Source: Plantactinospora soyae (GTDB taxonomy: Bacteria > Actinomycetota > Actinomycetes > Mycobacteriales > Micromonosporaceae). From it: a DNA stretch of 64,000 nt. The stretch covers positions 434,001 to 498,000 of the forward strand of contig NZ_JADBEB010000001.1 of the NCBI RefSeq assembly GCF_014874095.1, read 5' to 3'. A model generated the notes under the pieces. The model saw nothing but the letters and a program-made list of their open reading frames with translations. It was not told where the DNA came from and ran no database searches. Of the stretch, positions 2,592-34,395 are shown piece by piece (the stretch's first letter is position 1; each line of letters starts with the position of its first letter). The position numbers and the translations under genes are program-made.

Positions 2592-3710
2592 ATGTGGAAC
2601 AAGCGATGTGCCGCAGCCGTCGTGCTGATCACCATGGCCTCGGTGGGCGCAGTGGCGCCGGGGGCCCAGGCCGGTTACCGCGGCGACTCGCTGTACGGCG
2701 ACTACAACGCCGACGGATTCCTCGACACGGCCGTCCTCGGTGTCGTCGAACCCAATCTGTGCTCCACGATCGTCACGTTCGGCGCGGCGCCAGGCGTCTT
2801 CGTACCCCCGATCGCCTACACCTATCCGAAGCCCGGCGGCGGCACCGTCTTCACGGACTGCCCCGACATCGGCGTGGCGATCAACCTGGACGCCGACCCG
2901 AACGACGAACTCTGGGTCGGTTGGACGCCCGGTCCACCACCCCCGGCGACCTTCAGCCAGGTGGTGCTGCAACCCCCGACGTTCACCCCGGCCGCCACCT
3001 ATATATCCCAGATCGTCCAGCCCAGCTTCATCGACAAGGGCAGGTTCAGCGCCGGCGGCCGGTACAGCCCCTACCTGGTCGGGACGGGCGGGGTGCAGAA
3101 CTTCACCACCCTGGACGGCGTCACCTGGCGCCCCGGGCCGATCGACTACTGCTCGGAGGACGCCCCGACCGTCCAACTGGCCGACTGGACCCGCAACGGC
3201 ACCGACGGCACCCTGGTCGCCTACACCAGAGGCTGCGACGACAACAGCAACGGCGTCGTGCGGATCCGCGAGGACGGCAGCATCCAGCAACTGGAGATCG
3301 ACCTCACCGGCCGGACAACCTGGACAGCCCGGGTGGTCAACGCCAACGCTGACCGGTTCCCCGACGTGCGGACCACGAACCAGCTCACCGGGGCGGTCTC
3401 GACCTTCATCAACGACGCCACCAACGCCCCCGGACTGCTGATCCGGGCCCCGAAGGCGAACACCGACAGCGTCCAACTGGCCGTCAGCCGGGCGATCGCG
3501 ATCGACGTACTGGCCAACGACTTCGCGACCCGGGACGCCCGAGTGGTCGTCACGGTGCAGCCCCGGTACGGCACCACCCAGGTGCTCTCCGACCGTCGAG
3601 TGGTCTACCGGCCGAATCCGACCCACGGCCGCACCGACAGGTTCACCTACCAACTCGTTGATGAGGGCAGGCGGAGCAGCGCGAACGTCACCATCAGATT
3701 CCCGGCCTGA
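2592..3710 (+). CDS. Secreted FG-GAP/VCBS-like protein with C-terminal Big_9-type domain, paralogue 1 of 5
   Basis: 372 residues. The signal peptide ends GAQA. The body has FG-GAP/VCBS-style acidic loops (DYNADGFLD near residue 38, DADPNDE, NADRFPD), as in calcium-binding beta-propellers. The last ~75 residues match the bacterial cadherin-like Ig fold: VLANDFA, then VVYRPNPTHGRTDRFTYQL. ATG 2592 was chosen because all the clear paralogues begin MW-x-(K/R)-R or a basic equivalent; an in-frame ATG at 2559 adds 11 residues and spoils the signal peptide. There is no LPxTG motif or membrane tail, so the product is probably released or loosely wall-bound. It is the most divergent of the five and lacks the YEWTDQG signature of copies 3-5. 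Function unknown; adhesion or glycan binding is inference. Confidence 0.82.
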   Translation: MWNKRCAAAVVLITMASVGAVAPGAQAGYRGDSLYGDYNADGFLDTAVLGVVEPNLCSTIVTFGAAPGVFVPPIAYTYPKPGGGTVFTDCPDIGVAINLDADPNDELWVGWTPGPPPPATFSQVVLQPPTFTPAATYISQIVQPSFIDKGRFSAGGRYSPYLVGTGGVQNFTTLDGVTWRPGPIDYCSEDAPTVQLADWTRNGTDGTLVAYTRGCDDNSNGVVRIREDGSIQQLEIDLTGRTTWTARVVNANADRFPDVRTTNQLTGAVSTFINDATNAPGLLIRAPKANTDSVQLAVSRAIAIDVLANDFATRDARVVVTVQPRYGTTQVLSDRRVVYRPNPTHGRTDRFTYQLVDEGRRSSANVTIRFPA

Positions 3711-3746
3711 AGTCCGCCGGGCCGCTTCGAAACACGAGGAGACGCC

Positions 3747-4871
3747 ATGTGGCGCAAGCGGACAAGCATCGTGATCGTGATGGTGATCGTGGCCGCGATG
3801 AGCGGCACCGGGCTGATGGCGCCCTCCCCCGTCCTGGCGGGTGGCCGGGGCGAACCGATCTTCGGTGACGTGAACGGCGACGGCACCGTCGACCGGCTGA
3901 CGCTCGGCATCGTCCAGCCGGACCTCTGCTCCGTGATCACCGAGTACGGCCGTCCTGGAGGGGGCTATGCGCCCCCGGTGGCCGCGGTCTACCTGCGCCC
4001 CGGCGGCAGTGGGCTCGGCACCCGGTGCCCGGAGTTGGGCGTGGCCGTCGACCTGGACACCGACCACCAGCAGGAGCTGGTGGTGGGCTGGTTTCCCGGG
4101 CCCCCGCCGACCATCGAATACAACCTGCTGGTCCTGAACAACAACTTCCAGCCGTCGTTCGGCCTCGTGCAGGCACTCTTCTCGCCCTACTTCATCGGCA
4201 CCGCCGACTTCAACGCTGACGGACGGCAGGACGTCTACACGGTCACCGACCAGGGCCAGGGCATCGAGACCTACCTGAACCTGGGCGACGGCACGCTGGC
4301 GGCCGGCCCGGTGCAGTGGTGTGCCCGGCCCGTCGAGTACGCACTGCGGGACTTCGACCTGGACGGCGCGATGGACGTCGTCAGCAGCTACCTCGAGCGC
4401 TGCCTGTCGGCCTTCACCAGCGGGGTGGCGGTGGTCCTGGACGACGGCGCGGCCCAGGTGTTGCAGCACGACCCGAACGGCCTGGACACCTGGGTAACCC
4501 GGGTGGTAAATGCGAACGGCGACCGGATCCCGGACATCCGTACGGTGTCCCGGTTGACCGGGATCACCGACTACTTCATCGGCACCGCCAGCGGGCGGTT
4601 CGTCCTGTCGCCGAAGGCGAACAACGACACCGTCTCGATCACCGGCACCAGGGCGATAACCATCAACGTGAAGGCCAACGACCAGGCGACCAGCCAGGCG
4701 GTTGTCACCATCACCGTTCCACCGAGGTACGGGACCGCCCGGGTCATCAGCGGCGGCCGAATCGTCTACACCCCTCGGGCAAACCACGGCCTGACCGACG
4801 GGTTCACCTACCAACTGACCGAGGGCACTCGTCGGAGCAGCGCGGTCGTCCGAATCCGGTGGACCGGATAG
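3747..4871 (+). CDS. Secreted FG-GAP/VCBS-like protein, paralogue 2 of 5
   Basis: 374 residues, starting MWRKR after a GAGGAG ribosome site. The signal peptide ends SPVLA. Acidic repeat loops are DVNGDGTVD, DFNADGRQD, DFDLDGAMD and NANGDRIPD, spaced as in FG-GAP blades. Cysteine pairs around DLCSV/TRCPE and QWCAR/ERCLS correspond to those of the other copies and may form disulfides. The C-terminus (VKANDQATS, then IVYTPRANHGLTDGFTYQL) is the Big_9/cadherin-like domain. It lies 36 bases after copy 1 and 38 before copy 3, consistent with one transcript for copies 1-4. Ligand and role unknown. Confidence 0.83.
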   Translation: MWRKRTSIVIVMVIVAAMSGTGLMAPSPVLAGGRGEPIFGDVNGDGTVDRLTLGIVQPDLCSVITEYGRPGGGYAPPVAAVYLRPGGSGLGTRCPELGVAVDLDTDHQQELVVGWFPGPPPTIEYNLLVLNNNFQPSFGLVQALFSPYFIGTADFNADGRQDVYTVTDQGQGIETYLNLGDGTLAAGPVQWCARPVEYALRDFDLDGAMDVVSSYLERCLSAFTSGVAVVLDDGAAQVLQHDPNGLDTWVTRVVNANGDRIPDIRTVSRLTGITDYFIGTASGRFVLSPKANNDTVSITGTRAITINVKANDQATSQAVVTITVPPRYGTARVISGGRIVYTPRANHGLTDGFTYQLTEGTRRSSAVVRIRWTG

Positions 4872-24512: not shown

Positions 24513-25496
24513 ATGCTCGGCCAGGTGTTCGCGAAGGTATTTCGGATCGGCCTGATCTCCGTCGCCGCTGCCGCGCTCGTCGGAGCCCTCGTCCTGGTGG
24601 TGGCCGTCGTACGCGGCGGCGCCACCTCGGCCACCCCGGAGGCGGGGACGGTGCCGTCCTGGGCCGGCGGCCCGGCCGGACCGGCGGACGGCACCCCGGG
24701 GGCCGGTTCGGCGACGGCCACGGCACCGCACCCGACCGGGCCGGCGACACCGTCGACCGCCCCGACCCGGACGTCCTCGCCGTCGGCGAACGAGCGGCCC
24801 GGGGCGACCCGGCCCGGTACCCGTCCACCGGTGGTCGGGCACGGTCCCCGCTCCGGGAACCTGGTCGCGCTCACCTTCGACGCCGACATGACCGACTCGA
24901 TGCTCGCCAACCTGCGCAACGGGCGGGTGCGGTCGTACGCCAACCTGCGGATCATCGAGCTGCTGGAACGGGAACGGATCCCGGCGACGTTCTTCCTGAC
25001 CGGCAAGTGGGTGGAGCGCTATCCGGACCTGACCCGGCGGCTGGCCGGCAATTCCCGCTTCGAGCTGGCCAACCACACGTACGGGCACCTGGCGTTCACC
25101 CCGAACTGCTACGGCCTGCCCCGGGTGCCGAGCAGCCGGATGACCGAGGACGTGGCGCGGACCTTCCGGCTGATCGAGCCGTACGGCGGCCGGCAGACCC
25201 GCTACTTCCGCTTTCCCGGCCTGTGCCACGACGGTGCCTCGTTGTCCGCCCTCGCGCCGCTGGGGGTAACCGTGGTCGACGGAGACGTGGTCAGCGGGGA
25301 CCCGTTCGCCACCGCCTGGCGGCCGATCGTGAACGCGGTGCTGTCGAAGGTCAAGCCCGGCTCGGTCGTCGTCCTGCACGTGACCGAGGCGAACGCGGCA
25401 ATGACCGACGAGGCGCTGCCGCACATCCTGCGCGGGCTGCGCGAGCGCGGGCTCTCCCCGGCGCCCCTCTCCGAGGTGCTGTCCGGCGCCAGGTGA
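24513..25496 (+). CDS. Membrane-anchored polysaccharide deacetylase (NodB domain)
   Basis: 327 residues. One N-terminal helix (~10-33) acts as a signal-anchor, then a Pro/Thr/Ala linker to ~112 spans the wall. The NodB homology domain follows: TFDAD (Asp123 base, Asp125 metal), HTYGH (His188 and His192 metal), then RYFRFPGL and VVDGDVVSGDPF, and the final LHVTEAN motif. Family enzymes remove acetyl groups from peptidoglycan or other GlcNAc polymers outside the cell. It may act on the wall and lysozyme sensitivity; the precise substrate is unknown. Predicted divalent-metal dependence comes from the conserved Asp-His-His set. Confidence 0.87.
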   Translation: MLGQVFAKVFRIGLISVAAAALVGALVLVVAVVRGGATSATPEAGTVPSWAGGPAGPADGTPGAGSATATAPHPTGPATPSTAPTRTSSPSANERPGATRPGTRPPVVGHGPRSGNLVALTFDADMTDSMLANLRNGRVRSYANLRIIELLERERIPATFFLTGKWVERYPDLTRRLAGNSRFELANHTYGHLAFTPNCYGLPRVPSSRMTEDVARTFRLIEPYGGRQTRYFRFPGLCHDGASLSALAPLGVTVVDGDVVSGDPFATAWRPIVNAVLSKVKPGSVVVLHVTEANAAMTDEALPHILRGLRERGLSPAPLSEVLSGAR

Positions 25497-25547
25497 TCCA
25501 CCGGCCCCGCCGGCCGGTCCCACCGGTCCGTCACGCATAGTGTTCCC

Positions 25548-26396
25548 ATGGATGATTCGCTCGCGATCTCCGTTCGAGGGTTACGCAAGGCGTACGGCGA
25601 GACCACAGCGGTAGACGGCGTCGACCTGGCGGTGTCCCGGGGCGAGGTTTTCGCCCTGCTCGGCCCGAACGGGGCCGGAAAGACCACCACGATCGAAATC
25701 CTCGAGGGCTACCGCCGCCGGGACGCGGGCGAGGTCAGTGTGCTCGGCATCGACCCGGATCGCGCCGACGACCAGTGGCGGACCCGGGTCGGCATCGTCC
25801 TCCAGGGCACCGGCGAGTTCGACGACCTCACCGTGGCCGAGGTGGTGCACCACTTCGCCGGCTTCTACCCCGAGCCGGATGACCCGGACAAGGTCATCGA
25901 CCGGGTCGGCCTGGCCGACAAGGCGAAGGCCCGGACCCACGCCCTGTCCGGCGGGCAGAAGCGGCGGCTGGACGTGGCGCTGGGCATCATCGGCCGCCCC
26001 GAACTGCTGTTCCTGGACGAGCCGACCACCGGCTTCGACCCGGAGGCCCGCCGCGAGTTCTGGGAGCTGATCCGCGACCTGGCCGCCGCCGGCACCACCA
26101 TCGTGCTGACCACGCACTACCTCGACGAGGCCGAGGCGCTCGCCGACCGGGTCGGCGTGATCACCGGCGGCCGGCTGGTCGAGGTGGCCGCCCCGGCCCG
26201 ACTCGGCAACCGGGAGAACGCGTTGACCACCGTCTCCTGGCGTACCCCGGAGGGCGGGGTGGAACGCGCGGAGAGCGCGACGCCGACGGCGCTGGTCGCC
26301 GAGTTGGCCGCGCGGTTCGGCGGCGAGGTACCGGGGCTGACCGTGACCCGGCCCACCCTGGAAGACGTCTACCTGCAGATGATCGGGCACCGATGA
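25548..26396 (+). CDS. ABC transporter ATP-binding protein (ABC-2 exporter)
   Basis: 282 residues. Walker A is GPNGAGKT, the Q-loop lies in VGIVLQGTGEFDDLTV, the signature is LSGGQKRRLD, Walker B is LLFLDEPTTGFDPEAR, and the H-loop is LTTHYLDEAEAL. The C-terminal DrrA-type extension (LAARFGGEVPGLTVTRPTLED) is typical of drug or lipid exporters. The stop overlaps the permease start by four bases (ATGA), so the pair is translationally coupled. It energises export through the neighbouring permease; the cargo is unknown. Confidence 0.92.
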   Translation: MDDSLAISVRGLRKAYGETTAVDGVDLAVSRGEVFALLGPNGAGKTTTIEILEGYRRRDAGEVSVLGIDPDRADDQWRTRVGIVLQGTGEFDDLTVAEVVHHFAGFYPEPDDPDKVIDRVGLADKAKARTHALSGGQKRRLDVALGIIGRPELLFLDEPTTGFDPEARREFWELIRDLAAAGTTIVLTTHYLDEAEALADRVGVITGGRLVEVAAPARLGNRENALTTVSWRTPEGGVERAESATPTALVAELAARFGGEVPGLTVTRPTLEDVYLQMIGHR

Positions 26397-27241
26397 CCAC
26401 AGCATCGCGCACTCTCGACAGCCCGGCGACGACGGTCACCGGCCGCCGCCTCGGCCCGGCCACCCTCGCCCTCCGCCAGGGTCGCCTGGAACTCCGGCAG
26501 TTCCTGCGCAGCCGCGAGTCGGTCGTCTTCACGATGGCGTTCCCGGTCGTCCTACTCCTGATCTTCGCCTCGGTCTTCCGCGACGAAATCGGCGGCGGCG
26601 TACGGTTCACCCAGTACTTCGTGACCGGGATGATCGCCTCCGGTCTGGTAGCGGTCGGCTTCCAGAACCTGGCGATCCAGATCCCGGGTGAGCGGGACCG
26701 GGGCATCCTCAAGCGGCTGCGCGGCACCCCGATGCCGCAGTGGGTCTACTTCGCCGGCAAGGTGATCATGGTCGGGGTGATCGCCCTGGCCGAGACCGCA
26801 CTACTGCTCGGCACCGCGACCCTCTTCTTCGATCTCCAACTGCCGACGACCGCCGCCAAGTGGTTCACCTTCGGCTGGGTCTCGCTGCTCGGCATCACCG
26901 CCTGCACCCTCCTCGGCATCGCCTTCTCCTCCCTCGCCCAGACCGGCCGAGGCGCCTCGGCCACCGCCACCCCGGTCGCCCTGATCCTCCAGTTCATCTC
27001 CGGCGTCTTCATCGTCTTCACCCAACTGCCGAGCTGGATGCAGCAGGTGGCGGCGCTCTTCCCCCTCAAGTGGATGTGCCAGGGCCTTCGCTCGGTCTTC
27101 CTCCCCTCCTCCTTCGCCGCCCAGGAACCAGCCGGCTCCTTCGAACTGGGCCGGGTCGCCCTCGTCCTGTCCATCTGGTGCGTCCTCGGCCTCGTCCTCT
27201 GCCTGACCACCTTCCGCTGGACCACCCGCCGCGACGGCTGA
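26393..27241 (+). CDS. ABC-2 type permease
   Basis: 282 residues with six membrane helices, of the ABC-2/DrrB type. A cytoplasmic N-terminus (QGRLELRQFLRSRESVVFT) leads into the first helix. The family signature region is GERDRGILKRLRGTPMPQWVYF between helices 2 and 3. LPSWMQQVAALFPLKWMCQGLRSVF near the C-terminus is the conserved extracytoplasmic helix of DrrB relatives. Works with the ATPase at 25548. The TGA is followed at once by a half copy of the palindromic repeat. Confidence 0.92.
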   Translation: MTTASRTLDSPATTVTGRRLGPATLALRQGRLELRQFLRSRESVVFTMAFPVVLLLIFASVFRDEIGGGVRFTQYFVTGMIASGLVAVGFQNLAIQIPGERDRGILKRLRGTPMPQWVYFAGKVIMVGVIALAETALLLGTATLFFDLQLPTTAAKWFTFGWVSLLGITACTLLGIAFSSLAQTGRGASATATPVALILQFISGVFIVFTQLPSWMQQVAALFPLKWMCQGLRSVFLPSSFAAQEPAGSFELGRVALVLSIWCVLGLVLCLTTFRWTTRRDG

Positions 27242-27906: not shown

Positions 27907-29184
27907 TCATATGTTCAGCAGGCCGCCGTTGCGTAGGGCGTCGTCCTTGATCGCGATGAGATTCGCGGAGACGTACGGGATGTTATGCGTCTGGTGCCAT
28001 TCGCTCGGGAAGTACGTGACCAACCGCGACGCCTGGAATCGGCATTTGATTTCAGGCACGAACCGAGAATAGTTGGCGTCCGTGAAATACCAGAACGAGT
28101 TTTCGTTGTAGAACGCCACATGCGTCGGATCCTGGTAGGCACCCCGACCGTCGGTGCTAGGTGTCAGCGACAACAGCATCCCGTTCGGCGCAAGCAGCCG
28201 GTACAACTCGTTGAACAGTGCAATTTTGTCCGGAATGTGTTCCAGGAAATCCACAGCCCGAATGACTCCGACGCTGTTGTCCGGCAGATCGACACCCTTC
28301 GTTACATCGCAGACCATGTCGACGCCCGACCCATCGTGGTAGTCCAGACCGAGATATCCTTCCGGCTTGCTGTGGGCCGCACCCAGGTCGAGCGCCAGGA
28401 GTCCCTGCCGCCGTGACCAGGTCAGCACATTTTGTTGAATGTTCCGGTCGTAGATCTCCACCGTACGCTGCTGGATACGGGCGTTGAGATCCGGAACGCG
28501 CTGCGTGTTCTTGGCATGCATGCGCTGCAGGTACAGGCATTTCTCAATGTGATGAAACTCGCTCACCTGATAGATCCGGGCCATCAGATCGGCGTCGTCC
28601 GCGACGTCGAACGACTCGTCGTATCCGCCGACCTTCTCGTAGATGTCCCGACGGAAGGCCCGCACATGGTTCGGTGCGTACCAGATGTAGCTCACATTGT
28701 GCGGCGTCGGCGGCAACGCCCGGCATACCAGCACCTCGCGGCCGTCCACCTTATCGTCGTAGTGCCGCCAGCCGAATGAACTCGCGAAGCGGTCTTCGCA
28801 GCGGCTGCCGTCCTCCTGGATCTGCGCGGTGTCGCTGTAGACGAACCCCACCTCCGGGTTGGAGTCGAAGGCGTCGACGATCTCTTGCAGACAGTCGCTG
28901 CTGAGCAGATCGTCGTCGTCAAGCTCGACCAGGATGTCCCCGGCAGCCTCGGCGCAGGCGTACCCCTTCACAGCGCCAACGCCGTTCAGGTTGTCCTGGA
29001 CAATGAGCCGGATCCGATCGTCGTGCCTCTCAGGCCGCCAACGAGACCCCTGGTTGAGAACGACTACCCATTCCCAGTCGGTGAAGGTCTGCGCGACCAG
29101 TGATCGGAAACATTCGTCGATGAAACGGGTGCGGTTGCTCCCCGTGAAGACCGTTACGCGCGGTGTACGCATTGAACCGATCAC
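27907..29184 (-). CDS. GT2 glycosyltransferase fused to a SAM-dependent methyltransferase
   Basis: 425 residues with two enzymes in one chain. Residues ~5-235 are a GT-A glycosyltransferase family 2 domain: VTVFTGSNRTRFIDECFRSL, then LVELDDDDLLSSD with the metal-binding DxD (89-92), and VGGYDESFDVADDADLMARI as the acceptor-side motif. Residues ~255-425 are a methyltransferase: LALDLGAAHSKPEGYLGLDY, AVDFLEHIPDK, and GMLLSLTPSTDGRGAYQDPT. It would add a sugar and methylate it or its target in the cytoplasm. GTG 29184 overlaps the TPR gene stop by four bases (GTGA); ATG 29172 is also possible. GC is visibly lower than in its neighbours, which suggests transfer. The likely target is the collagen-like protein, by inference. 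Confidence 0.85.
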   Translation of the reverse strand: MIGSMRTPRVTVFTGSNRTRFIDECFRSLVAQTFTDWEWVVVLNQGSRWRPERHDDRIRLIVQDNLNGVGAVKGYACAEAAGDILVELDDDDLLSSDCLQEIVDAFDSNPEVGFVYSDTAQIQEDGSRCEDRFASSFGWRHYDDKVDGREVLVCRALPPTPHNVSYIWYAPNHVRAFRRDIYEKVGGYDESFDVADDADLMARIYQVSEFHHIEKCLYLQRMHAKNTQRVPDLNARIQQRTVEIYDRNIQQNVLTWSRRQGLLALDLGAAHSKPEGYLGLDYHDGSGVDMVCDVTKGVDLPDNSVGVIRAVDFLEHIPDKIALFNELYRLLAPNGMLLSLTPSTDGRGAYQDPTHVAFYNENSFWYFTDANYSRFVPEIKCRFQASRLVTYFPSEWHQTHNIPYVSANLIAIKDDALRNGGLLNI

Positions 29185-29813
29185 CTACCCGCCGGACCCG
29201 AGGACCGAGTGGTCGGGACCCCGCGGTACTTCGCCGGAACGGCTGAGGTGAGCCCCTTGTCCAGCCGGATCGCCGCCTTGAAGGCGTCCCGCGCTGCCGC
29301 GTTGTCACCGGATTGGGACAGCAGCATGCCCAGCCGGAGGTAGGCGGTTGACGACTTGTTGTCGATCGACACGACCTTGCGGTAGATGTCCATCGACGTC
29401 GTCGGGGCTTTACTTTCCAGTGCAATCGCCTTGTTGTAAAGGGCCGGCTTGTAGTTGGCGTCGGCCGCCAATGCCTTATCGTAGTTGCTGATCGCCTCGT
29501 CTGCCTGGTTGCGCGACTGGGCGATGAAGCCCAGATTGAACCAGGCGAACTTGTTGTTGGCTTCGACGGCCAGCAGCTTCTCGAAGGTGGCCTTCGCCGC
29601 GTCGAAGTTGCCGGCCTGGCCCTGCTCGACACCGAGCTTCAGCAGATCCGCCGGCGCGGTTCCGGTGTTGGTGCCGCCATTCGTCTTGTCGCTTTTGCTG
29701 TCACCGGAGTTGCTCGTCTGCGGCTTGTCAGCAGGCTTCTCGCTGCATGCCGCGACTCCGGTCAGCAGGACCGCACCACAGGCGAGTGACCCGAATATCT
29801 GACGCATGCTCAT
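29181..29813 (-). CDS. TPR lipoprotein
   Basis: 210 residues. A type II signal peptide with lipobox TGVAAC places lipid-modified Cys23 at the outer face of the membrane. A Ser/Thr/Gly/Lys-rich linker (~24-52) leads to at least four TPR units: ADLLKLGVEQGQAGNFDAAK, FAWFNLGFIAQSRNQADEA, PALYNKAIALESK and STAYLRLGMLLSQSGDNAAA. Such repeats hold protein partners. The ATG overlaps the collagen-gene stop (ATGA) and the stop overlaps the GT-methyltransferase GTG, so it is the middle of a strictly coupled three-gene operon. It may anchor or assemble the collagen-like fibre at the cell surface (inference). Confidence 0.85.
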   Translation of the reverse strand: MSMRQIFGSLACGAVLLTGVAACSEKPADKPQTSNSGDSKSDKTNGGTNTGTAPADLLKLGVEQGQAGNFDAAKATFEKLLAVEANNKFAWFNLGFIAQSRNQADEAISNYDKALAADANYKPALYNKAIALESKAPTTSMDIYRKVVSIDNKSSTAYLRLGMLLSQSGDNAAARDAFKAAIRLDKGLTSAVPAKYRGVPTTRSSGPAGR

Positions 29814-32533
29814 TTCTCCTCCTTGACGGTAGCGGGGCGCTCCGACTTGCTGTTCGGCCGGCTGGCCTTGCTACTGTTGGCCGTCCCCCGGCCCGACTTG
29901 TTGGCCGGAGCCGTTAACGCCACCGGCGTGGCGGGCGAGATGCAGGACACCCAGATGTCGGCGCCTCCGCCGGTAAAGGTGAACTGGTAGCCACTGATCG
30001 AGAGCGGCTGGATCAGCACCGGGTTGACGCCCGCGCCCGAGAGCTGGTACCCGGTTCCGACAGCAATGTCTCCGGGCACACACCCGAAATTAACGGGGGT
30101 GTCCGCAATCACGGTAAGCGGGCCCTGAATGTAGGCGGCCTGGATTCCGTTGCCCGCCAATCCCTGCGCGCCCTGGGCGCCCGCGTCGCCCTGCGGTCCT
30201 TGTACGCCCTGCAAACCCAGCGCACCTTGGGCGCCCTGGGCACCTTGAGTACCCGTGTCGCCCTGGGCCCCCTGGAAACCTTGCGCACCCTGAATTCCCT
30301 GGGCTCCTATGTCGCCTTGAGGACCTTGAGTGCCCACGTCGCCCTGGGCACCTTGAACGCCCACGTCGCCCTGGGCGCCCTGGAAACCTTGAACGCCCTG
30401 GGCACCCACGTCGCCCTGCGCACCCTGAATTCCCTGGGCACCTTGAACACCCACGGCACCCTGAACGCCCGCATCGCCCTGAGCACCCTGAGCACCCTGA
30501 ACACCCGCATCGCCCTCGGCGCCCTGGAAACCTTGGAAACCTTGAACGCCCACGTCGCCCTGGGCGCCCTGCGCACCCTGAACTCCCTGGGCACCTTGAA
30601 CACCCACGTCGCCCTGGACACCTTGGGCGCCCTGGGCACCTTGAACACCCACATCGCCTTGGGTGCCCTGGGCACCTTGCGCACCTTCAACGCCCCCGTC
30701 ACCCTGGGCGCCCTGGAAACCTTGGAAACCTTGAACGCCCACGTCGCCCTGGGCGCCCTGGGCACCTTGAGCACCTTGAACGCCCTCGCCCACGTCGCCC
30801 TGCGCACCCTGAATTCCCTGGGCACCTTGAACACCCACGGCACCCTGAACGCCCGCATCGCCCTGAGCACCTTGGAAACCTTGAACGCCCTGGGCTCCTA
30901 TATCGCCCTGGGCACCTTGAGTACCCACGCCGCCCTCGGCACCTTGAGCGCCCACGTCGCCCTGGGCACCTTGAGCGCCCACGTCGCCCTGGGCACCTTG
31001 AGCGCCCACGGCACCCTGGGCACCTTGAACGCCCTCGCCCACCTCGCCCTGCGCACCCTGAACTCCCTGAGCACCTTGAACACCCACGGCACCCTGAACG
31101 CCCGCATCGCCCTGAGCACCTTGGAAACCTTGAACGCCCTGGGCTCCTATATCGCCCTGGGCACCTTGAGTACCCACGCCGCCCTCGGCACCTTGAACGC
31201 CTTCAACGCCCTGGACACCTTGAGCACCCACGTCGCCTTGAGCACCTTGAGCACCTTGAGCACCTTGAGCACCTTGAGCACCTTGAACGCCCTCGCCCAC
31301 GTCACCCTGCGCACCCTGAACTCCCTGAGCACCTTGAACACCCACGGCACCCTGAACGCCCGCATCGCCCTGAGCACCTTGGAAACCTTGAGCACCTTGA
31401 ACGCCCTGGGCTCCTATATCGCCCTGAGCACCTTGAGTACCCACGCCACCCTCGGCACCTTGAACGCCCTGGACACCTTGAGCGCCCACGTCGCCCTGGA
31501 CACCCTGGGTACCTTGCGCACCTTGAACGCCCTCGCCCACCTCGCCCTGCGCACCCTGAACTCCCTGAGCACCTTGAACACCCACGGCACCCTGAACGCC
31601 CGCATCGCCCTGAGCACCTTGGAAACCTTGAACGCCCTGGGCTCCTATATCGCCCTGGGCACCTTGAGCACCCACGTCGCCCTGGGCACCTTGAGCACCT
31701 TGAACGCCCTCGCCCACGTCACCCTGCGCACCCTGAATTCCCTGAGCACCCTGAATTCCCTGAGCACCTTGAATACCCACGGCACCCTGAACGCCCGCAT
31801 CGCCCTGAGCACCTTGGAAACCTTGAACGCCCTGGGCTCCTATATCGCCCTGGGCACCTTGAGTACCCACGCCGCCCTCGGCACCTTGAGCACCTTCAAC
31901 GCCCTGGACACCTTGAACGCCTTCAACGCCCTGCACACCTTGAACGCCCACGTCGCCCTGGGCACCCTGGGCACCTTGAGCACCTTGAGCGCCCTCGGCA
32001 CCCTGAACGCCCGCATCGCCCTGAGCACCTTGGAAACCTTGAACACCCTCGCCCACGCCGCCCCGCGCACCCTGAATTCCCCGCGCACCCTGAATTCCCT
32101 GGGCACCCTGAATTCCCTGGGCGCCCTGAATTCCCTGGGCACCCTGGGCGCCCTGGGCACCTTGAGCGCCCTGGGCGCCATGCGAGCCGTGCGGGTAGTC
32201 CGATTTCGGCGGCCCGCCCTCGTGGTGCCCATCCCACGGGCCCTGCCAGCCCTGGGGGCCGTAGTCCGGGGTCCTTCCTGGGTAGCCGTCCCACGAATCG
32301 TCAGGTCCACCGCCGTCGTCGCGGACAGTCGACCAGGACAACGGCCACCCGCCGTACTGGCCGAGCGGGCCGGGCGTACCGATGTGCACGCCCTGGGCAG
32401 ACGATTTCGCTTCCACCGGTTGCGCTGCGGCTGCGGGCCCACCCGTCATCCCGACTGCCAGCAGGACAGAGCTCAGCCCTGAAGCGGCGCGGCCTTGCTT
32501 CAGCCCTCGCCGCAGCCGTCGGTTGTTGCTCAT
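29810..32533 (-). CDS. Large secreted collagen-like protein, proline-poor Gly-X-Gln repeats
   Basis: 907 residues from ATG 32533, which has GGAGGGG upstream; an in-frame ATG at 32563 lacks a ribosome site. The signal peptide ends PAAAA (~37). Residues 38-118 are Gly/Pro/Trp/Asp-rich. Residues ~119-793 are about 225 Gly-X-Y triplets, overwhelmingly Gly-Ala-Gln, Gly-Val-Gln, Gly-Asp-Val/Ile/Ala and Gly-Phe-Gln; only two prolines are seen in this stretch. Six near-identical interruptions read GEGVQ, each removing one residue from the phase. The C-terminal ~114 residues form a globular domain with two Cys (FGCVPG, WVSCIS) and a basic Ser/Lys-rich tail. There is no LPxTG motif. Probably a surface fibre assembled by trimerisation. 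Confidence 0.88.
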   Translation of the reverse strand: MSNNRRLRRGLKQGRAASGLSSVLLAVGMTGGPAAAAQPVEAKSSAQGVHIGTPGPLGQYGGWPLSWSTVRDDGGGPDDSWDGYPGRTPDYGPQGWQGPWDGHHEGGPPKSDYPHGSHGAQGAQGAQGAQGAQGIQGAQGIQGAQGIQGARGIQGARGGVGEGVQGFQGAQGDAGVQGAEGAQGAQGAQGAQGDVGVQGVQGVEGVQGVQGVEGAQGAEGGVGTQGAQGDIGAQGVQGFQGAQGDAGVQGAVGIQGAQGIQGAQGIQGAQGDVGEGVQGAQGAQGDVGAQGAQGDIGAQGVQGFQGAQGDAGVQGAVGVQGAQGVQGAQGEVGEGVQGAQGTQGVQGDVGAQGVQGVQGAEGGVGTQGAQGDIGAQGVQGAQGFQGAQGDAGVQGAVGVQGAQGVQGAQGDVGEGVQGAQGAQGAQGAQGAQGDVGAQGVQGVEGVQGAEGGVGTQGAQGDIGAQGVQGFQGAQGDAGVQGAVGVQGAQGVQGAQGEVGEGVQGAQGAVGAQGAQGDVGAQGAQGDVGAQGAEGGVGTQGAQGDIGAQGVQGFQGAQGDAGVQGAVGVQGAQGIQGAQGDVGEGVQGAQGAQGAQGDVGVQGFQGFQGAQGDGGVEGAQGAQGTQGDVGVQGAQGAQGVQGDVGVQGAQGVQGAQGAQGDVGVQGFQGFQGAEGDAGVQGAQGAQGDAGVQGAVGVQGAQGIQGAQGDVGAQGVQGFQGAQGDVGVQGAQGDVGTQGPQGDIGAQGIQGAQGFQGAQGDTGTQGAQGAQGALGLQGVQGPQGDAGAQGAQGLAGNGIQAAYIQGPLTVIADTPVNFGCVPGDIAVGTGYQLSGAGVNPVLIQPLSISGYQFTFTGGGADIWVSCISPATPVALTAPANKSGRGTANSSKASRPNSKSERPATVKEEK
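30776..31720 (-). repeat. Long in-frame DNA repeats inside the collagen-like gene
   Basis: A DNA landmark reading TTGAACGCCCTCGCCCAC on the plus strand occurs at 30776, 31025, 31283, 31523 and 31700, with a variant near 32040. Spacings of the first five are 249, 258, 240 and 177, each equal to a whole number of Gly-X-Y triplets plus two codons. Modules are nearly identical at DNA level over 150 bases or more, so copy number should change easily by recombination. They are coding and not CRISPR: no constant-length spacers. Confidence 0.8.
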
Positions 32534-32579
32534 GACCCCTCCAGAGAGCCGCCCCAGATGCACCCAGAGCTACTTACCA

Positions 32580-32999: not shown

Positions 33000-33162
33000 C
33001 TGTGTCGAGGTGGCGGATGACCTGGCTGACCGCGTACTGGTCCGGGACTCGAAGGACCGGCCGGGACCGGTGCTGACGTTCGGGCCGACTGCCTGGACGG
33101 CGTTCGTGACCGAGGTGTCCCGGGTACGGCAGCGGTCAGGAGAGCGGGCCGGTTTCCCGTAG
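32902..33162 (+). CDS. DUF397 domain protein
   Basis: 86 residues. The DUF397 domain begins near residue 20: TWRTSSRSTNTGGNCVEVAD, then VLVRDSKDRPGPVLTFGP and WTAFVTEV. DUF397 proteins are small actinobacterial partners usually encoded after an Xre-type regulator with which they act as a switch; no such regulator is seen here, so this is an orphan. Upstream codons include TTA, rare in this DNA, so the N-terminal ~20 residues may not be native. ATG 32902 is the best start available. The 3' end overlaps the sigma factor gene tail-to-tail by 27 bases. Confidence 0.65.
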   Translation: MLRTRRQSCGVSGLALPGPTWRTSSRSTNTGGNCVEVADDLADRVLVRDSKDRPGPVLTFGPTAWTAFVTEVSRVRQRSGERAGFP

Positions 33163-34395
33163 CCGGTCGGTCAGGAACTCCTGTTCGGCGGCGTTGTCGC
33201 TGAGCGCCAGCGCCGTCCGGTACGCCTCGGCGGCCTCCGCGTACCGGCCCAGCCGGCGTAGCAGATCCGCCCTGGTCGCCGGCAGATAGCGATAACCTGC
33301 CAGCCGGCCGTCGCGCTCGATCGCCTCGACCTCGGCCAGTGCCGCCGCCGGTCCGTCCACCATGGACACCGCCACCGCCCGGTTGAGCGCGACCACGGGC
33401 GACGGCCAGATCCGCAGCAGTTCGTCATAGAGGGTACGGATCTGCGGCCAGTCGGTCTCCGGATAGCTCGGCGCCTGCGCGTGCAGTGCGGCGATCGCCG
33501 CCTGCAGGGTGAACCGACCGGGTGGGCCGGCCCGGAGCGCGGCCACCACCAGCCGATCCGCCTCGGCGATCAGCTCTCGGTCCCACGCCGACCGGTCCTG
33601 TTCCTCGATCCGTAGCAGCCGACCATCGGCATCGGTCCGAGTGGCCCGCCGCGCCTGGTGCACCAGCAGCAGGGCCAGCAGCCCGGCGACCTCGCGGTCG
33701 GCCGGCAACAGCAGCCGGAGCATCCGGGCCAGGTCGAGAGCCCGGTCGGTGAGTTCGTCGCGTACCAGATTCTCGCCGGACCAGGCGGTGTGCCCGGCGG
33801 TGTAGAGCAGGTGGACCACGGTGAGCGCCGCGCCGACCCGATCGGGCAGCTCGGCGCTCGACGGGACCCGGTACGGGATCCGGGCCGCGCTGATCTTCTT
33901 CTTGGCCCGGGTCAGCCGGGCGGCCATCGTCGGCTCGGGGACCAGGAACGCGTACGCGATGTCCGGTGTGGCGAGCCCACACACCAGTCGCAGGGTCAGC
34001 GCCACCCGTGCCTCCAGGGCAAGTGCCGGATGGCAGCAGGTGAAGACCAGGCGGAGTCGGTCGTCGGGAATCGTGTCCGGCTGATCCATCTCGGCCTCCT
34101 CCTCCGGCCCGAGCAGCAACGGCAGTTTGGCGTCGAGCGTCTGGCGTCGGCGCATCGCGTTCAGCGCGGTACGTCGGGCCGCCGTGGTCAGCCAGGCCCC
34201 GGGCCGATCGGGTACGCCGTCGCGTGGCCAGGTCCGCAACGCCTGGACGTACGCCTCCTGCACGGCCTCCTCGGCGGCGTCGAGATCGCGGGTCACCCGC
34301 ACCGTCGCGGCGAGCACCCAGGCCCACTCGCGGCGGTGCGCGTCAGCGACGCTCTGGGCGACCGTGCGTCCGCCTGTGCCTCCGACCGTGCTCAG
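33136..34395 (-). CDS. ECF42-type RNA polymerase sigma factor with C-terminal TPR-like extension
   Basis: 419 residues if started at CTG 34395. Region 2 is LDAAEEAVQEAYVQALRTWP, with PGAWLTTAARRTALNAMRRR after it. Region 4 includes LTLRLVCGLATPDIAYAFLV. The long C-terminal part (DUF6596 and TPR-like: LALNRAVAVSMVDGPAAALA, RRLGRYAEAAEAYRTALAL) marks the ECF42 group, whose members are encoded beside DGPF/YCII proteins, as here. No anti-sigma gene is expected. Family members begin about 26 residues before the first GTG (34317); the only in-frame codon at that place is CTG 34395, which overlaps the YCII stop (CTGA) and has GGAG five bases upstream. Start from CTG is inference. Confidence 0.85.
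   Translation of the reverse strand: MSTVGGTGGRTVAQSVADAHRREWAWVLAATVRVTRDLDAAEEAVQEAYVQALRTWPRDGVPDRPGAWLTTAARRTALNAMRRRQTLDAKLPLLLGPEEEAEMDQPDTIPDDRLRLVFTCCHPALALEARVALTLRLVCGLATPDIAYAFLVPEPTMAARLTRAKKKISAARIPYRVPSSAELPDRVGAALTVVHLLYTAGHTAWSGENLVRDELTDRALDLARMLRLLLPADREVAGLLALLLVHQARRATRTDADGRLLRIEEQDRSAWDRELIAEADRLVVAALRAGPPGRFTLQAAIAALHAQAPSYPETDWPQIRTLYDELLRIWPSPVVALNRAVAVSMVDGPAAALAEVEAIERDGRLAGYRYLPATRADLLRRLGRYAEAAEAYRTALALSDNAAEQEFLTDRLRETGPLS

Follow-up and report, generated by a model that had tools for sequence, protein, structure and literature searches.

What does a single protein chain that joins a glycosyltransferase to a methyltransferase do beside the gene of a collagen-like fibre? 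The question is raised by a locus of the actinobacterium Plantactinospora soyae, situated in a 64,000-nucleotide stretch of DNA (contig NZ_JADBEB010000001.1, positions 434,001 to 498,000) that is referred to as the window in the following. An open reading frame (ORF) check of the window revealed three overlapping frames on the minus strand, encoding, in this order, a collagen-like protein, a tetratricopeptide repeat (TPR) protein and a fusion of a family 2 glycosyltransferase (GT2) with a methyltransferase. The linkage of the fusion to collagen genes, the rhamnose supply encoded at some loci and a glutamine signature of the collagen-like stalk make modification of the collagen-like chain the best explanation, and it is moderately probable that the fusion constitutes the dedicated modifying enzyme of this chain in a fibre system. 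The modification probably precedes export and probably consists of O-methylated rhamnose.

A sequence-only reading of the locus had described four-base overlaps of all three genes, a secreted 907-residue Gly-X-Y protein, a surface TPR lipoprotein and a single chain with glycosyl- and methyl-transfer domains. The overlaps were recovered on the minus strand (29810-29813 between the collagen-like and TPR frames, 29181-29184 between the TPR and fusion frames), the collagen-like protein features a signal-like N-terminus in addition to its Pfam match (Table 1), and the fusion indeed unites both domains, matching Glycos_transf_2 (47.8 bits, cut-off 23.3) and Methyltransf_11 (28.5 bits, cut-off 21.2) of Pfam. 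The lipoprotein assignment suits the window, where several TPR models of Pfam exceed their cut-offs and the signal-like N-terminus ends in LTGVAAC, judged by eye to be a lipobox, but not several Streptomyces homologues, whose start resembles a membrane anchor by eye. The three frames are considered genes because of their homologues, which comprise 80 fusion loci at 55-96% identity, TPR homologues at 53 of 81 loci and collagen-like frames at 76 of 81.

These loci stem from a contig scan in which 163 stretches with fusion relatives were detected; the best 80 bacterial loci were kept and joined by the window, and as they include many near relatives, and the viral loci treated below near-copies, the counts are not independent. 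Hosts are Micromonospora, Plantactinospora, Streptomyces, Kitasatospora and the nodule symbiont Frankia, among others, as well as metagenome-assembled genomes (MAGs) or genomes of Acidimicrobiia, Solirubrobacterales and Micrococcales. The collagen-like frames lie in the flanking DNA at a median gap of 688 bases, 53 of them within 1 kb, while no Gly-X-Y frame occurs in 27 control loci around other glycosyltransferase or methyltransferase homologues (92 kb) or in the rest of the window (1-27000, 33501-64000). In an evenly drawn sample of the class, the fusion was present in 18 of 394 genomes; a collagen match was obtained in 17 of these 18 and in 148 of the 376 others, and the collagen gene was near the fusion in 15 of the 17 besides the window's (not seen in G364 and G080). 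The link between fusion and collagen is not chance. A search for the trio in other actinobacteria, as had been proposed, found the collagen frame directly upstream on the same strand at 41 loci, 33 of which exhibit the full order collagen-TPR-fusion. However, the expectation of a self-contained gene set is borne out for the fusion-collagen unit, which is conserved across actinobacteria, rather than for a fixed trio: the TPR homologue stands directly upstream of the fusion in only the 53 loci mentioned, and it was not detected at any of the eight Frankia loci. Since the flanks vary among 22 loci whose neighbours were read by eye, the fusion unit resembles a self-contained cassette. Many contigs stop inside the collagen gene, as is expected of repeats.

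The second line of evidence is the composition of the stalk. In the window its 678 residues comprise 160 Gln, 9 Thr, 2 Pro and neither Ser nor Lys, with Gln at 69% of the Y positions of the scored runs; the tail of the protein is rich in Ser/Thr and bears Lys. The median share of Gln at Y (Y-Gln) amounts to 0.67 in 76 partner stalks versus 0.16 in 40 control collagens (p = 4e-18), the latter (L159-L198) having been selected among the strongest PF01391 matches in genomes without the fusion; some of these controls are not convincing collagens. The control value agrees with the means of 13-18% given in the available part of PMC3368898 for collagens of E. coli prophages, viruses and Gram-positive bacteria. 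Among stalks of at least 20 triplets, a Y-Gln of at least 0.5 was reached by 62 of 67 partners versus none of 35 controls. Pro is lower in partner stalks (0.08 versus 0.28), while the share of Ser/Thr does not differ (0.10 versus 0.12, p = 0.37). The signature persists among collagens that share one common C-terminal domain, with a Y-Gln of 0.66 in fusion genomes (14 stalks) versus 0.23 elsewhere (18 stalks; p = 1e-4); these 32 usable stalks come from 50 stretches read, the other 18 of which, all without fusion, had none. Per-group medians span 0.39-0.79. Apart from Gly, the stalk of L104 (44 triplets) consists of just A, P, Y, Q, R and I, and that of L110 (17 triplets, a fragment at a contig end) of just Q, N, P, A and V, leaving Gln as the sole reactive side chain in common. 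Beyond the partners, 13 further collagen stretches of fusion genomes were read, 12 of which contain a run and four of which are Gln-rich (L205 0.50, L208 0.38, L209 0.81, L210 0.53); these four might represent second substrates or partners that have broken off.

The enzyme itself is well conserved: an alignment of 34 fusions shows a mean column identity of 67%, with the donor-binding and catalytic acids and much of the methyltransferase block invariant, and its structure model is confident throughout (pLDDT 92, pTM 0.90) except for residues 349-355, which score low. The glycosyltransferase half displays the GT2/GT-A fold, the acidic donor-binding motif and the catalytic acid, and is by fold close to chondroitin polymerase, dTDP-bound SpsA, the TDP-rhamnose enzyme RmlT and peptide GalNAc transferases. 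The methyltransferase half retains D266-L-G268 in what would be motif I but reads GAA, where many sugar methyltransferases typically feature GCG, and only one PDB profile matched it, weakly (20.7 bits). The fusion does not resemble glutamine N-methyltransferases of the PrmC/HemK type in their NPPY-type motif, the presumed counterpart reading RAVDFLEH when aligned and no NPPY being seen in the window protein. Neither a signal sequence nor a membrane segment is apparent in the fusion by eye; hence, action before export would be the simplest reading.

As to the sugar, homologues of all four genes rmlA, rmlB, rmlC and rmlD occur in 15 of 81 fusion loci, exclusively in Streptomyces, and at 13 of these rmlB and rmlC flank the collagen gene. 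The rmlB, rmlC and rmlD frames of L112 and rmlA of L109 score above the equivalog cut-offs of NCBIfam, in the case of rmlC by a small margin (156.8 versus 155.75). This linkage points to dTDP-L-rhamnose as the likely donor in Streptomyces and, by mere analogy with these loci, for the enzyme of the window, too. A second GT2 gene, weakly similar to the peptide S-glycosyltransferase SunS (48 bits versus a cut-off of 350 for the L109 copy), accompanies the fusion at 8 of 81 loci.

The pair also extends to viruses. The fusion is frequent in contigs of IMG/VR, where 209 relatives were detected and the best 80 kept; 14 of these carry a collagen frame in the flanks of the fusion, some directly adjacent in apparent tail-fibre/baseplate modules, others not. 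Searched as whole records (43 of the 80 contigs, each >12 kb, plus cyanophage S-CRM01), 24 of 44 fusion viruses yielded a collagen match, 22 above the cut-off, versus 5 of 26 control records taken from 80 contigs chosen by phoH (p = 0.005); habitats are unmatched in this comparison, the fusion contigs presumably being mostly freshwater and the controls marine, to go by metagenome number. No fusion match was obtained in the phoH controls, where the query matched nothing at all, though a similar query matches in bacterial genomes. The 24 collagen loci from fusion viruses, two of which (L365, L366) are not tied to a named record, show a Y-Gln of 0.45-0.89 (median 0.68), and two of the three usable phoH control stalks one of 0.00. 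The fusion of cultured S-CRM01 is of full length (39% identity) and carries the annotation of methyltransferase and glycosyl transferase; the collagen repeats of this phage (Y-Gln 0.67) stand apart from the fusion gene. A tree of 113 fusions, built by a quick method and with some long branches, requires seven switches of label between virus and bacterium, of which at least four are forced by well supported branches; some of its MAG contigs could be of viral origin.

The coordinates of the features are compiled in Table 1. The window lies at 0.46 Mb of a genome consisting of a single contig of 9.7 Mb; a fusion copy 96% identical to its own was found in Plantactinospora, and in the tree, from which near-copies (>95%) were excluded, the fusion of the window clusters among Micromonospora copies. 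Upstream of the operon lies the gene of a sigma-70-like factor that contains DUF6596 and matches TPR_2. Downstream, a polysaccharide deacetylase is followed by a DrrA/DrrB-like pair of ABC transporter genes; this downstream set was not noticed beside the fusion at other loci read by eye. An all-beta domain of 74 residues, with a GGG...GW pattern and two invariant Cys (C22, G32, P47 and C68 are invariant in 26 sequences), caps collagen-like proteins, recurs in other actinobacterial frames and occurs in 58 of 394 genomes of the class; its copy in the window has no Pfam match. In two Frankiaceae MAGs (L055, at 2850-4091 downstream of the fusion start, and contigs that also appear as G227 and G155), a single locus combines a TPR and a collagen gene with a pair of fusion paralogues, which share 67-68% and 51-53% identity with the fusion of the window. 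Micromonospora parva bears two separate cassettes on one contig (L043 and L103), whose fusions share 94% and 76% identity with that of the window, and the fusion frame of Micromonospora tulbaghiae (L053:8001-9260) holds one stop codon as fetched.

Table 1. Features of the fibre operon, its surroundings and related loci (positions of the window unless stated otherwise)
Feature	Position	Strand	Remarks
Collagen-like protein	29810..32533	-	907 aa from ATG; Pfam Collagen 300 bits (cut-off 27.2)
Alternative GTG start of collagen-like ORF	29810-32563	-	917 aa
Gly-X-Y stalk, 678 residues	30146..32179	-	coordinates derived from residue numbers; starts at residue 129 of GTG frame
C-terminal beta domain, 74 aa	29924..30145	-	common to many, not all, partner collagens
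TPR lipoprotein, 210 aa	29181..29813	-	signal-like start, lipobox-like LTGVAAC
GT2-methyltransferase fusion, 425 aa	27907..29184	-	no signal sequence seen
GT2 (GT-A) half, about residues 1-235	28480..29184	-	invariant D89, D91, D92, D196, D197
Class I methyltransferase-like half, about residues 260-425	27910..28407	-	invariant D266, G268, D281; conserved block around TPSTDGRGA, DPTH, YNEN
Sigma-70-like factor	33136-34317	-	upstream of operon
Polysaccharide deacetylase, DrrA/DrrB-like pair	24513-27241	+	downstream of operon
SunS-like GT2 (other loci)	L109: -2153 to -1017 from fusion		also L082, L079, L085, L099, L102, L110, L114

Taken together, the following course of events may be envisaged. 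The Gly-X-Gln chain, evident from its gene and signal-like N-terminus, would be synthesized in the cytoplasm, where the GT2 half would move a sugar, most likely L-rhamnose from dTDP-rhamnose, as the rmlABCD linkage in Streptomyces suggests, onto the chain or onto a sugar on the chain. Subsequently, the methyltransferase half would O-methylate that sugar, as in A064R of chlorovirus PBCV-1. The chain would then be exported and trimerise, perhaps aided by the C-terminal beta domain, to form an uncharged, Pro-poor stalk that the modification might stabilise or hide, while the TPR lipoprotein, where present, might aid assembly or attachment outside the membrane. Phages possess the same enzyme along with Gln-rich collagen repeats, some of which belong to tail-fibre modules. 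Candidates for the attachment residue are Gln at Y, scattered Thr/Ser and residues outside the stalk. With 9 Thr and no Ser in the stalk, the Thr decoration of BclA type that had been called to mind is ill suited to the window. This paucity, together with the Ser/Thr share not being raised in partners, argues against plain glycosylation of that type and makes Gln a candidate acceptor, as do the L104 and L110 stalks and the fact that Y-Gln is the sole compositional feature that rises with the enzyme in cells and is high in phages as well. It is nevertheless considered rather improbable that Y-position Gln is the modified residue, be it by O-methylated rhamnose on the side-chain amide or by N-methylation of Gln, a reading that requires the stalk to be the modified part.

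Several observations weigh against modification of the collagen-like chain by the fusion. The assumption that the fusion might reside mainly in unrelated contexts, named beforehand as speaking against a fibre system, does not apply to bacterial genomes, where a collagen frame was not seen in five of 81 loci (L067, L078 and, cut by contig ends, L064, L091 and L095), but 66 of 80 viral flanks lack one nearby, and so do 20 of the 44 records searched whole. At record lengths of at least 30 kb the viral contrast shrinks to 19 of 22 versus 5 of 10 (p = 0.07), and one viral control without a fusion in its fragment has a Y-Gln of 0.80. On the bacterial side, Y-Gln falls below 0.4 in L054, L077, L080 and L117, and the G177 fusion (51% identical to the window's) adjoins a Thr-rich GATGAT stalk with a Y-Gln of 0.06. 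Full rml sets were seen in Streptomyces only, Micromonospora lupini (L045) having an isolated rmlD-like frame, and the one rmlB match of the window genome lies at 6.80 Mb, far from the operon. Moreover, co-occurrence would be expected of an enzyme and its substrate but equally of parts of a common surface structure. The fusion might instead make a methylated-rhamnose cell-surface polysaccharide or glycolipid, to which an unglycosylated fibre binds or with which it is co-expressed, Y-Gln being purely structural. This is considered unlikely, as no flippase, polymerase or extra glycosyltransferase recurs in most of the 22 loci (by eye, not systematically), the second GT2 of SunS type is present at eight loci, stalk composition tracks the enzyme, and the fusion occurs along with Gln-rich collagen repeats in phages, which do not construct a cell wall.

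A sub-case of chain modification, whose probability therefore overlaps with that of the best explanation, is glycosylation of Ser/Thr in the stalk, N-terminal linker or tail as in BclA, while Y-Gln would support the helix by hydration in the absence of Pro or charge. Thr at Y reaches 0.18-0.39 in L042, L055, L092 and L115, which fits this possibility, as do the Ser/Thr-rich tail of the window protein, the GATGAT stalk and the composition given in Table 4 of PMC3368898, available in part, for Gram-positive collagens (Y = Gln 18.4%, Thr 48.3%). On the contrary, it is Gln and not Ser/Thr that distinguishes partners from controls, and the protein termini are not conserved across all partner collagens; this sub-case appears doubtful, if less so than the polysaccharide. 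Finally, Y-Gln could serve as a transglutaminase cross-linking site, the fusion acting on something else. A Gln-rich fibre with a Lys-bearing tail would suit such a role, yet none of the genes read around the loci, where no search was aimed at such an enzyme, stood out as a transglutaminase, and Transglut_prok matched nothing in the window genome, which is uninformative given that the control likewise matched nowhere; this is regarded as highly improbable.

Comparison with known systems places the fusion-collagen pair in context. BclA carries its sugars at Thr of a Thr-rich stalk, a study of 2004 reportedly having located them on the collagen region; its glycosyltransferase and methyltransferase are separate genes, and its C-terminal domain differs from that of the window collagen. 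BclA-type collagens have rhamnose supply genes beside the collagen gene; here, the full set was seen at 15 of 81 loci, all of Streptomyces, and not beside the operon of the window. Unlike BclA, the present system features a single chain for both transfers and stalks that can be devoid of Ser/Thr. We know of no glycosyltransferase-methyltransferase partner in the system of the streptococcal adhesins Scl1/Scl2, nor of a methyltransferase in Mimivirus L230. The SclB model of NCBIfam matches the window stalk above its cut-off (434.9 versus 325), but an LPXTG sorting signal was not found in the window protein, which ends in SERPATVKEEK. According to the available sections of PMC7793302 and PMC6222408, BclA, the spore collagen of the Bacillus cereus group, bears a rhamnose-rich oligosaccharide with an O-methylated terminal sugar, and is akin to the proposed product as a collagen-like surface protein, too. 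In PBCV-1, rhamnose is transferred and then O-methylated by A064R, in which glycosyltransferase and methyltransferase domains are likewise joined in one chain (PMC9614988, in excerpt); A064R has three domains (two glycosyltransferases and a methyltransferase) and builds an N-glycan end, and the likeness noted here is one of domain make-up. L230 resembles the fusion as a bifunctional enzyme acting on a collagen-like protein but hydroxylates Lys and adds glucose (PMC9614988 and PMC8968730, in excerpt). Freshwater actinophages E7 and F5 encode both glycosyltransferases and collagen-like proteins, a resemblance by description; the accessible text of PMC10202952 does not link the two and proposes DNA protection or superinfection exclusion.

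A literature search, to which subscription papers were mostly out of reach, found no published description of the fusion-collagen pair, and the company of the fusion and a Gln-rich collagen gene hints at a modification of microbial collagen that has not been described so far. According to the available part of PMC8968730, the collagens of bacteria, which attract biotechnological interest, are mostly unmodified. The gene pair, widespread in soil actinobacteria, Frankia and phages, represents a case of stalk composition varying with the presence of a single enzyme. It bears on the question of how collagen is stabilised or disguised by microbes, which lack hydroxyproline for this purpose, and provides a specific alternative to DNA protection, the role proposed for freshwater actinophage glycosyltransferases (PMC10202952, in excerpt). 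If Gln were the acceptor, it would represent a new kind of protein modification, and such Gln chemistry would be the microbial counterpart, in actinobacteria and phages alike, of the Y-position hydroxyproline and glycosyl-hydroxylysine of animal collagen.
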